Positions 529 through 2,679 of a stretch of 11,500 nucleotides of DNA are shown here, piece by piece. Both the position numbers and the translations under genes were made by a program. The notes under the pieces are model-generated. The model did not search any database. It saw only the letters and a list, made by a program, of their open reading frames with translations, and had not been told where the DNA came from. The stretch comes from Atribacteria bacterium SCGC AAA255-N14. GTDB taxonomy: Bacteria > Atribacterota > JS1 > SB-45 > 34-128. Location: contig ASPC01000114.1 in assembly GCA_000405345.1 (NCBI GenBank), positions 1 to 11,500 of the forward strand, in the 5' to 3' direction. Every line of letters starts with the position of its first letter. The stretch's first letter is position 1.

Positions 529-1068
529 TTAAAATTCCGGCTCAATCAGCCCGAAATTCCCGTCTCTTCTTTTATACAGAACATTAACTTTATTGGTATT
601 ATCATTTGCAAAAACAAAAAAATTGTGTCCCAATAAATCCATTTGCATTGCCGCTTCTTCTACTGACATCGGTTTAATAGCAAATCTTTTAGTCTTTACA
701 ATTTTGGCAATCTTATCCGGCTCGCTATCTTCAACATCAATCTCTTTGTTAGCTAATACTATTTTTTCTGTGCCGGGGTGAGGTTTCTGAAAATATTTTT
801 CTTTATATTTCTTTATCTGTCTTTCTAATTTATCTGCCACTTTATCTATGGAAGTATACATATCATCTGTTTCTTCTTCTGCTCTAATCAAAGCCCTATT
901 GGTTTGTAAAGTCACTTCGACAATCTGTCTGCTCTTCTCTACACTTAAAGTTACTATTACTTCTAAGATATGATCAAAATGTCTCTCGATCTTGCTTAAT
1001 CTTTTTTCAATATAATTACGTATCGCATCTGTCACTTCAATATGTTTCCCTTTGAAAATAATTTTCAT
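529..1068 (-). CDS. hpf: Long-form ribosome hibernation promoting factor (HPF/RaiA)
   Basis: This 179-residue protein has the two-domain layout of long HPF. Residues 1-95 are the S30AE/YfiA domain, which in the family binds the 30S decoding region. It starts MKIIFKGKHIEVTDAIRNYI and has a basic helix near 78-92. After a linker (about 96-125), residues 126-179 form the dimerisation domain, with the family signature LLGHNFFVFANDNTNKVNVLY and then RRDGNFGLIEP. In known systems this C-terminal domain joins two 70S ribosomes into an inactive 100S dimer in stationary phase or stress. The ATG start has a clear AGGAGG 8 bases upstream. The gene follows a structured RNA at 1231-1459 on the same strand, the arrangement that gave the raiA RNA motif its name. 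A hypothetical gene follows 10 bases after its stop. Confidence 0.97.
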   Translation of the reverse strand: MKIIFKGKHIEVTDAIRNYIEKRLSKIERHFDHILEVIVTLSVEKSRQIVEVTLQTNRALIRAEEETDDMYTSIDKVADKLERQIKKYKEKYFQKPHPGTEKIVLANKEIDVEDSEPDKIAKIVKTKRFAIKPMSVEEAAMQMDLLGHNFFVFANDNTNKVNVLYKRRDGNFGLIEPEF

Positions 1069-1230
1069 ACCTTTTTCCTCCTTAGTAATAGTTTATTTTA
1101 CTTAATATATATATTCTCCGTCTAAACCGAAAACCCTTTTTTATTTTAAATTTTTTTTAAATATTTTTAATTTAATTTTCCCCTTTAACTTCTAATTGTT
1201 TTCCCTTCATTAATTATTTAAATATTTTAT
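1069..1230 (-). other. AT-rich spacer between the structured RNA and hpf
   Basis: These 162 bases contain long A/T runs and no credible gene. In the transcription direction the end of the structured element is not followed by a U-run, so I see no intrinsic terminator separating it from hpf. The RNA could therefore be the 5' part of a longer hpf transcript. The only clear signal is the hpf ribosome binding site AGGAGG at about 1077-1082. A TATATATATT stretch near 1100-1110 could act as a -10 region for hpf, but I could not pair it with a convincing -35. Confidence 0.5.
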
Positions 1231-1459
1231 CCGCCTTTCCTTAGACTGACCTGGTCTTTGCCCCCACACTCGCCTGCTGAGAGGTTTGCTCAAGAACTTT
1301 ATCCTTCACTACTACTCTTCTCTTATTGTTCTAACCTGTTAGGGTTAAGGCAGGACTTACTCCAAAGCCGCACCATGCTCAGTAACCAAAGTTACCTTAC
1401 GTGGGTCGTTTCGCCTGCGACTGGCTTCGACTTTCAACCACAGCTCTAAGGAGAGGCGG
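1231..1459 (-). ncRNA. Structured noncoding RNA upstream of hpf, probable raiA-motif RNA
   Basis: A GC-rich island of about 229 bases in otherwise AT-rich DNA is bounded by a near-perfect 15-base inverted repeat: 1231-1245 against 1445-1459, 14 of 15 positions pairing. This gives a long closing stem. Inside are further local helices: 1382-1395 (GTAAC/GTTAC, 4-base loop), 1332-1347 (TAACC/GGTTA, 6-base loop), 1349-1369 (GGC..GGA/TCC..GCC) and 1401-1441 (GTGG..GTCG/CGAC..CCAC). The minus strand is favoured because hpf/raiA lies 162 bases downstream and a candidate promoter sits just upstream in that orientation. A structured RNA of about 200 nucleotides, named raiA motif, is known upstream of raiA/hpf genes in Firmicutes and Actinobacteria, and size and position match. 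I assign it by context and fold, not by a covariance-model hit. A MITE-like element or another large RNA such as 6S RNA remains possible. Confidence 0.66.
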
Positions 1460-1468
1460 CATATGAGC

Positions 1469-1498
1469 TTTATACGGTACGGGATAAAGTTAAAACAA
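1469..1498 (-). promoter_or_regulatory. Candidate sigma-70-type promoter for the structured RNA
   Basis: On the minus strand a TTGTTT (-35 like, 1493-1498) is followed by an 18-base spacer and TATAAA (-10 like, 1469-1474). A transcript would begin about 7-10 bases further on, at the start of the closing stem of the structured RNA. The -10 overlaps the comF stop codon. The -10 matches consensus at five of six positions, but the -35 is weak, and AT-rich DNA gives many chance matches. The main support is its spacing from the RNA end. Confidence 0.35.
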
Positions 1499-2225
1499 AT
1501 ATATTCTTAGCTCGAGCTTTCATTAACTCTTTAGCACATTCTTCTACAGTAGCCCCGGTAGTAAACACATCATCCAAAATTAGAACATTTTTCCCTTTAA
1601 TTTCTTCTGGTTTCTCTACCGAAAAAGCTCTAAGAATATTTTTCTCCCTTTCTTTCCTGGATAAATTAACCTGAAAAGGGGTTAACTTTTTCTTTATTAA
1701 AACACTTTCTCCAACCGGAACAGAAAAATAATCTCCTATAACTTTACCCAGTAAAACACTCTGATTAAATCCTCTTTTATTTAAATCATTCTTATGTAAA
1801 GGAACGGGGATAATTAAGTCAAATTTATTTTCAAATTCATTATTTTTTAACAAATAATCCACCATTAACTTTCCTAATGGCTTAGCCAACTTTTTCTCTC
1901 CGTAGTATTTAAAGAGATGAATGCATTTTTTTAATACTTTATCGTATATTCCCATAGAACGAGAGAACTCAAAGGAATATTTTTTTATTTTACAGTCAAG
2001 GCATAAGATTTCTCTGTTTTGTTTAAAAAAATCTGTAGGTATTAAAGGTTTTCCGCACTTTACGCAATAAGGTCTTTCGATTAACTCAATGGTTTTAAAA
2101 CAATCCTCACAAATTGAATATCCTTTAGATTCTCGGATAGGCTTTTCACATACCTTACAATCTAAGGGAAAAACAAAATTAAGCAACCCTTCTTTTATAT
2201 ATTCTATCATACTTTGATTATTCAT
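1470..2225 (-). CDS. comF: ComF family protein (double zinc ribbon plus phosphoribosyltransferase-like domain)
   Basis: From the ATG at 2225 this is 251 residues, close to the usual ComF length. Four CxxC pairs in the N-terminal part (C23/C26, C39/C42, C54/C57, C75/C78) form the zinc-ribbon region. The C-terminal half is a type I phosphoribosyltransferase fold with VLILDDVFTTGAT at 214-226, the PRPP-loop signature, and PVPLHKNDLNKRGFNQS at 140-156, typical of the family. ComF proteins are linked to late steps of natural transformation, but many bacteria carry them without known competence and the biochemical role is unsettled. The frame stays open 48 codons further upstream. I reject that extension because it is encoded by intergenic repeats and has no family similarity, while the chosen ATG has an AGGATT upstream and begins where homology begins. 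Its stop lies 10 bases before the structured RNA. Confidence 0.93.
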   Translation of the reverse strand: MNNQSMIEYIKEGLLNFVFPLDCKVCEKPIRESKGYSICEDCFKTIELIERPYCVKCGKPLIPTDFFKQNREILCLDCKIKKYSFEFSRSMGIYDKVLKKCIHLFKYYGEKKLAKPLGKLMVDYLLKNNEFENKFDLIIPVPLHKNDLNKRGFNQSVLLGKVIGDYFSVPVGESVLIKKKLTPFQVNLSRKEREKNILRAFSVEKPEEIKGKNVLILDDVFTTGATVEECAKELMKARAKNIFVLTLSRTV

Positions 2226-2679
2226 ACTAATCCTAATTCGTAAAATTCCTAATATAGTATCGAGTATCGAGTATCGAGTAAATATTATAGCGTAGAGCGT
2301 GCAGCGTTTAGCGTAGAGAAACAGTATATAGTATTGAGTATCGAGTATATAGTCAAGGAAAAAATACAAGTGGTTTGATGAATCGAGCTCTCTAAAAACT
2401 ATATGTTACATGCTGATATCACAATACGCTACACAAGACACGAAAAAAAGCTTTGAGTTTTAAGTTATTGTTTTTCGCTTTTCGCTGTATGCTGTATAAT
2501 GATAACTAAAAATTGTATTAAAATTAAGGACTAATATATCTTGTATTTTACTTACACTTATTTACCCGCTCCTATACGCTAAACACTACCCGTTATTATG
2601 CTATTCACTATTTACATATCACTCATCACTTATCACTGCATTTTTTACGCAATACGATATACGATATACGCGATACGAA
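2226..2679. repeat. Repeat-word-rich intergenic region between ahcY and comF
   Basis: These 454 bases hold no credible gene and consist largely of short degenerate repeats. From left to right: a 7-base tandem GTATCGA, about 3.4 copies (2257-2280); a GCGTAGAGCGT-type block (2290-2318); a second TATCGAGTA-type block (2323-2353); CGCTTTTCGCTGTATGCTGTAT-like text around 2466-2487; CACTATTTACA/ATCACTCATCACTTATCACT-like words (about 2608-2637); and ATACGATATACG words (2647-2680) that run into the ahcY stop codon. CGTATTGCGT at 2647-2656 (minus) recurs twice at 11041-11064. I see no terminator hairpin with a U-run and no RNA gene. Confidence 0.75.
2257..2280. repeat. Heptamer tandem repeat GTATCGA, about 3.4 copies
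   Basis: Three perfect copies of GTATCGA plus GTA stand head to tail. Imperfect relatives follow at 2323-2353 (GTATTGA, GTATCGA, GTATATA). There are no spacers, so this is not a CRISPR array. The array is part of the spurious upstream extension of the comF frame, which it keeps open. Confidence 0.9.

Follow-up and report, generated by a model that had tools for sequence, protein, structure and literature searches.

A raiA-motif RNA downstream of comF in one clade of Atribacterota

Introduction

The raiA motif RNA, also called ModT, is a known, intricately folded and poorly understood RNA that has been described mainly from Firmicutes and Actinobacteria. According to passages of PMC11706538, raiA RNA of Clostridia is an abundant, stable, growth-phase-regulated transcript that acts in trans, and complementation in C. 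difficile works from another locus. The same passages, citing Soares 2024, assign the RNA to nine classes in two phyla, while species are elsewhere said to come "mostly" from those phyla; they also place Acetohalobium arabaticum in Actinomycetota while giving its family as Halobacteroidaceae, so that phylum counts should be read with care. They further report a conserved SigA motif before raiA RNA in four clostridial species, judge synteny to be a poor guide, use non-sporulating carriers to argue against sporulation as its shared role, and state that probing favors an updated model of the RNA over the Rfam model (PMC11706538). Rfam family RF03072 was revised with R-scape for Rfam 15, according to the part of PMC11701678 that treats it.

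The titles, abstracts and passages covered by our literature search contain no report of raiA RNA in Atribacterota; supplementary tables and the Rfam species list may well contain one. The occurrence described below adds a phylum to the range of an RNA already known and does not amount to a new RNA type.

Results

The window, by which we mean the whole 11.5 kb stretch of DNA analyzed, encodes a full-length raiA-motif RNA on its minus strand, at 1453..1237. Rfam RF03072 matches there by cmscan with 174.2 bits (E 7e-45), over model positions 1-209 of 209 and far above the gathering cut-off of 101.3 bits. No other Rfam family reaches gathering level anywhere in the window, and from 1000 to 1700 no other RNA family appears even at E<=1. 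The RNA lies between a comF-family gene and hpf, all three on the minus strand. The features are as follows.

529..1068, minus strand: hpf, encoding a long-form ribosome hibernation-promoting factor (PF02482, Ribosomal_S30AE, and PF16321; TIGR00741 above cut-off)
1231..1245, minus strand: 3' arm of closing stem P1a (sequence; covariation)
1237..1453, minus strand: raiA-motif (ModT) RNA, Rfam core (cmscan, full model 1-209)
1273..1354, minus strand: P6-P7-P8 domain in its long P7/P8 form (alignment); P6 pairs CCUGC at 1354-1350 with GCAGG at 1277-1273
1366..1372, minus strand: pk-loop, the 3' strand of pseudoknot pk-1 (pairing and double changes)
1381..1396, minus strand: P5 hairpin (covariation analysis)
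1405..1431, minus strand: P3 hairpin (covariation, 73 sequences)
1431-1428 with 1408-1405, minus strand: P3a, GUCG/CGAC
1425-1423 with 1415-1413, minus strand: P3b, GCC/GGC
1416..1422, minus strand: P3 loop, the 5' strand of pk-1 (pairing and double changes)
1445..1459, minus strand: closing stem P1a, 5' arm, in which 14 of 15 positions pair (sequence; covariation)
1470..2225, minus strand: comF-family gene (Pfam domains DZR_2 and Pribosyltran), with 16 nt between its stop codon and the Rfam start

The GntX and ComF NCBIfam models match the comF product with strong E-values, both below their curated cut-offs. An initial annotation made from the letters of the window had proposed a raiA-motif-like RNA between comF and hpf on one strand, closed by a 15-base inverted repeat with 14 pairs. 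The covariance model confirms the family, the Pfam domains of both neighbors confirm the placement, and the inverted repeat (1231-1245 and 1445-1459) is helix P1. Two details need adjustment. The extent given there, 1231..1459, is that of P1, whereas the Rfam core spans 1453..1237; and the element, which had been called GC-rich, has 49% G+C, which is rich only relative to its AT-rich surroundings.

Folding of the window copy gives a minimum free energy z-score of -2.47, with 3 of 200 shuffled sequences folding as well. Covariation was examined in an alignment of 21 atribacterial sequences (the window and 20 genome copies) and in a joint alignment of 73 rows that adds 52 from Clostridia. The 56 clostridial copies consist of 51 from a set of 57 class hits and five others; four copies longer than 265 nt were omitted from the joint alignment. 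Within Atribacterota, the closing stem that the initial annotation had singled out for a covariation check shows double changes in ten of its 15 pairs and pairing in 293 of 315 cells, a result matched by 0 of 200 shuffles. A 58-pair structure of the entire RNA has 98.1% of its cells paired, as against 28.6-47.1% when slid by one to three columns, and 14 double-changed pairs, where shuffles average 6.8; none of 500 shuffles reaches 14. Most double changes within Atribacterota come from P1. The other helices change less in this phylum on its own: P1b, P3b, P6 and the middle of P8 are invariant, and P1c, pk-1 and P5 show one-sided changes. Once Clostridia are added these helices gain double changes, P3b excepted. 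Alignment of the outer P1 columns is poor among the Clostridia, where 412 of 776 cells pair, and the covariation of outer P1 therefore rests on Atribacterota.

Pseudoknot pk-1, with seven pairs, is paired in all 147 cells in Atribacterota and in 498 of 509 cells across the 73 sequences, where five of its seven pairs are double-changed. Helix P3a (GUCG/CGAU in the joint alignment) is paired in 292 of 292 cells, 16 of them with double changes, and one of its pairs occurs in G-C, C-G and A-U forms; P3b pairs in all 219 of its cells, without a single double change. P5, P6, P7 and P8 are likewise supported by the joint alignment. The structure line given by cmscan is without P3a and P3b and has pairs at 28-30 and at 50-51/84-85, for which the 73 sequences offer no double change. 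P3a is seen in the cryo-EM structure, as described in passages of PMC11751092. The pattern of pairing and double changes argues that the fold of raiA RNA is conserved in Atribacterota.

Constancy of at least 96% across the 52 Clostridia was found at 84 positions, paired ones included; the window keeps 82 of these, and 81 stay the same in 90% or more of the atribacterial copies. We mapped 21 tertiary-contact residues, taken from passages of PMC11751092, onto Rfam consensus numbering; 17 are identical in all 21 atribacterial copies, and the remaining four (A43, A46, G179 and C181) vary in Atribacterota and in Clostridia too. Pair U83-A187 of pk-2 is present in 73 of 73 sequences. By our mapping, pair G84-C186 of pk-2 is kept in 11 of 21 Atribacterota, the window included, and in 42 of 52 Clostridia; it is replaced in 10 of 21 atribacterial copies (by G-A or A-A) and in about 9-10 of the 52 clostridial ones. 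The atribacterial copies fall into two forms, of which that of subclade B (G049-G058; loci L083, L085, L086, L093-L097, L099, L100) has a much shortened P8 and a variable P7. With the full model, P1-P8, pk-1, most contact residues and the comF and hpf neighbors, they resemble the raiA/ModT RNAs of Clostridia and Actinomycetota, and differ in their phylum and in the two subclade-specific P7/P8 forms. The published parts on the Clostridium acetobutylicum structure (PMC11751092; PDB 9ELY, PMC12286853) show the same P3a/P3b, pk-1 and GNRA-like turn residues; the altered G84-C186 pair of 10 of 21 atribacterial copies and the short P8 of subclade B set these apart from it. Family identity is thus established by the covariance model, by retention of the fold and most tertiary-contact residues, and by the comF-RNA-hpf neighborhood.

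The best 80 of 171 hpf relatives in a species-level genome collection include eight loci from metagenome-assembled genomes (MAGs) titled Atribacteria or Atribacterota, with 72-89% identity to the window hpf; none of the other 72 exceeds 58%. All eight titled loci have raiA RNA upstream of hpf. In a RelA tree the window falls inside the raiA-bearing group of Atribacterota, and the conjecture that its lineage might lie outside Firmicutes and Actinobacteria is thereby borne out. Within Atribacterota the lineage is probably JS1. Among 50 Atribacterota genomes, 20 have one RF03072 match each, at 166-180 bits, and 30 have none under the stricter filters, which miss weak matches, that were used here and in every other genome search covering more than 40 genomes. 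All 20 positive genomes belong to one RelA clade of 23, and 19 of them have an hpf with 55-89% identity to that of the window. The three remaining members of the clade (G045, G047 and G048, 86-93% RelA identity) are without an hpf match as well, which makes an absent contig a likely reason for their lack of the RNA. G043 (0.6 Mb) is negative and, having no RelA match, cannot be placed. The other 26 negatives (G017-G042) are clearly more distant in RelA or hpf, where these were found. Twenty-two of the 26 have an hpf match, single in 20 (39-47% identity to the window) and split in two genomes (38-53%); no comF match was found upstream of hpf at the 11 of these loci that were examined, over up to 1.5 kb each. 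Twenty-four of the 26 are in the RelA tree, on one side of a branch with a support of only 78, with G042 on a long branch. At one positive locus (G003, L088) a stretch of N separates the RNA from a further fragment of raiA 3' sequence downstream; this is probably a scaffolding artifact.

All 21 atribacterial loci have comF upstream of the RNA, with the comF stop codon 7-34 nt before the Rfam start, and 20 have hpf downstream, at distances from 80 to 326 nt (the longest includes a run of N). The exception is G046 (L084, 1-1200 minus), in which comF precedes the RNA and a pyrimidine-nucleoside phosphorylase gene follows; no hpf was found within 1.5 kb downstream of that RNA or in its MAG. The RNA can therefore be retained without an adjacent hpf. 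In Clostridia, 19 of 56 loci have no same-strand hpf in the stretch examined. A profile grown from atribacterial ComF finds comF upstream at 20 of the 56, eight of them at 8-11 nt, a lower bound given that passages of PMC11706538, citing Soares 2024, put the figure at 74%. The order comF-RNA-hpf also occurs in one Actinomycetota record, from Nonomuraea, in which HPF scores above its cut-off and ComF below. The spacer between comF and ahcY in the window (2256-2353 and 2618-2678) contains many repeats with a 7-base period (AGTATCG, AGCGTAG, ATACGAT); GTATCGAGTA, with at most one mismatch, has 8 occurrences in the window where 0.3 would be expected, and runs of the type TTAGTCGTTAGTG lie 3' of the RNA in G005, G006 and G046.

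Atribacterial and clostridial loci differ in the sequence that abuts the RNA. A promoter score of at least 11 next to the RNA is reached at 0 of 21 atribacterial loci versus 31 of 55 clostridial ones. The clostridial near-consensus promoters adjoin the RNA, some overlapping the last comF codons, and at 45 of the 55 loci at most 5% of shuffles score as well; a single atribacterial copy of the 21 (G056) beats its own shuffles. No atribacterial copy thus has a SigA-like promoter comparable to the clostridial ones, which suggests release of the RNA from the comF transcript. tmRNA and tRNAs served as controls. Of 18 full-length tmRNA matches from the same clade 17 were scored, and 16 of these, G053 being the exception, are without an adjacent promoter above shuffles; 14 tRNAs, mostly one tRNA-Ala, yielded one consensus promoter (tRNA-Leu, TTGACG-17-TATAAT). 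Such controls rarely show promoters, and the missing SigA-like promoter may therefore partly reflect unfamiliar promoter rules. In the 17 tmRNA loci (L257-L271, L273, L274), tmRNA closely follows an apparent coding frame, as the raiA RNA follows comF; judged by its letters, this frame is probably smpB. For hpf itself, none of 19 spacers has a best promoter score that stands above its shuffles (5% level), and window positions 1000-1600 contain no terminator-like site.

The trees are unrooted, and the RNA is a short sequence. The RNA tree separates the 21 Atribacterota from 52 Clostridia with support 99/99, and its two atribacterial subclades match those of the HPF and RelA trees. The HPF tree was built from 98 sequences, a single one for each genome and with frames of 140 residues or longer, taken from the 171 hpf loci; it joins the raiA-bearing Atribacterota in one group (94/89) and parts them from 57 Bacillota rows by a branch of 98/95. 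These patterns argue for vertical inheritance of the RNA in the atribacterial clade and against recent transfer from the sampled Clostridia. Rooting the RNA tree with the Nonomuraea copy failed, as this copy formed a long branch that landed by G008 inside Atribacterota (89/94). HPF residues 46 and 49 (numbered as in the window protein), mostly Asn and Ile, are common to raiA-bearing Atribacterota and Clostridia and rare in raiA-lacking relatives. They are the two positions specific to raiA-bearing lineages, against none in three control pairings; as a raiA-linked signature they are too few and are confounded by descent.

Beyond Atribacterota, RF03072 was found in 13 of 119 genomes of the phylum of a Halanaerobiales MAG, 11 times above cut-off; the six of these 13 copies that were placed against the clostridial ones came out scattered. 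Two matches from that phylum, both below cut-off, are 113 nt long (G430:C1:1551088-1551200 and G505:C1:117664-117776; 57.0 and 51.7 bits) and are possible reduced variants. RF03072 matched 0 of 198 genomes of the phylum of a Nitrospiraceae MAG, in a search in which nothing at all rang, 0 of eight genomes with non-atribacterial hpf loci, and six of 47 further genomes of that kind. Phage records gave no raiA RNA match at E<=0.01, and the single exact raiA pattern searched in viral contigs was not found. Both matches in the plasmid collection are records of chromosome size (2.6 and 11.9 Mb, from Acetoanaerobium and Nonomuraea). Carriage by phages or plasmids was accordingly rejected.

A search for the Spo0A_C domain found it in none of the 50 Atribacterota genomes; the only control to ring was B. 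subtilis. Because Spo0A is absent from all 50, sporulation is not a role common to all carriers of raiA RNA. GGDEF proteins occur in all 50 genomes, so a c-di-GMP route like that suggested for C. difficile may operate here, but it is not singled out.

Discussion

We propose that the window encodes a genuine raiA/ModT RNA, inherited vertically in one clade of Atribacterota, that follows comF, usually precedes hpf, acts in trans during exit from growth, and is processed from the comF transcript; we put the probability of this reading at roughly 85%. As others have shown for the RNA in Clostridia, the atribacterial RNA would be expressed in growing cells as a compact, long-lived, structured molecule that works in trans, and would help cells pass from growth to a resting state. 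In Atribacterota such a passage could not run through Spo0A-driven sporulation. HPF makes resting ribosome dimers, and hpf is the usual downstream neighbor of the RNA (G046 excepted), which leads us to favor a ribosome link; our best guess for the underlying step is ribosome hibernation or an adjustment of translation capacity. As to its synthesis, the RNA probably has no SigA promoter of its own and would be transcribed together with comF and then freed near P1, a layout that we read from the sequence with low to moderate confidence.

Upstream placement on the same strand at 20 of 21 atribacterial loci, together with the Rfam type label "Cis-reg; riboswitch", would suit a cis-acting leader, that is, a riboswitch of hpf. 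The variable distance between RNA and hpf, the lack of a terminator-like site between 1000 and 1600, the G046 copy in front of a different gene and the 19 clostridial loci without same-strand hpf all speak against it, as does the successful complementation from another locus in C. difficile reported in passages of PMC11706538; we give the idea a slim chance. The 15-base inverted ends could also be those of a MITE, a transposon-like repeat with terminal inverted repeats. Dispersal of that kind, which the initial annotation had named as a point to check, is contradicted by the 20 positive genomes, every one of which has a single copy preceded by comF, and the internal structure is both conserved and covarying, so that the likelihood of a mobile element is practically nil.

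The question of transfer arises from hpf, since the window gene is nearer to several Bacillota (up to 58%) than to raiA-lacking Atribacterota, and a recent horizontal transfer of the comF-raiA-hpf block from Clostridia was the first reading of these identities. RelA tilts alike, though, with 47-57% identity to Bacillota rows versus 45-51% to raiA-lacking Atribacterota over whole matches, so the closeness is no peculiarity of this locus. The RelA control and the separation of Atribacterota from Bacillota and Clostridia in the HPF and RNA trees leave that reading unsupported, and we judge its chance to be small. An ancient transfer into Atribacterota would also be compatible with these trees, which are unrooted. 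Returning to vertical inheritance, a bolder form of it would have the comF-raiA RNA-hpf block arise before Bacillota, Actinomycetota and Atribacterota diverged, with ribosome-pool tuning at growth exit as its original job, sporulation as a later clostridial addition, and excision from the comF transcript as the atribacterial practice. We consider this scenario rather unlikely.

raiA RNA is among the most intricate bacterial RNAs of unproven molecular function. The 21 atribacterial sequences are independent evidence for its closing stem and, with Clostridia, for P3a, which is missing from the Rfam structure line. They also offer natural variants for dissecting the RNA: a short P8, an altered pk-2 pair, copies without an adjacent SigA-like promoter, and one copy with no hpf beside it. 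A branch of a Spo0A-less phylum that has kept raiA RNA by vertical descent removes sporulation as the common denominator of its carriers.
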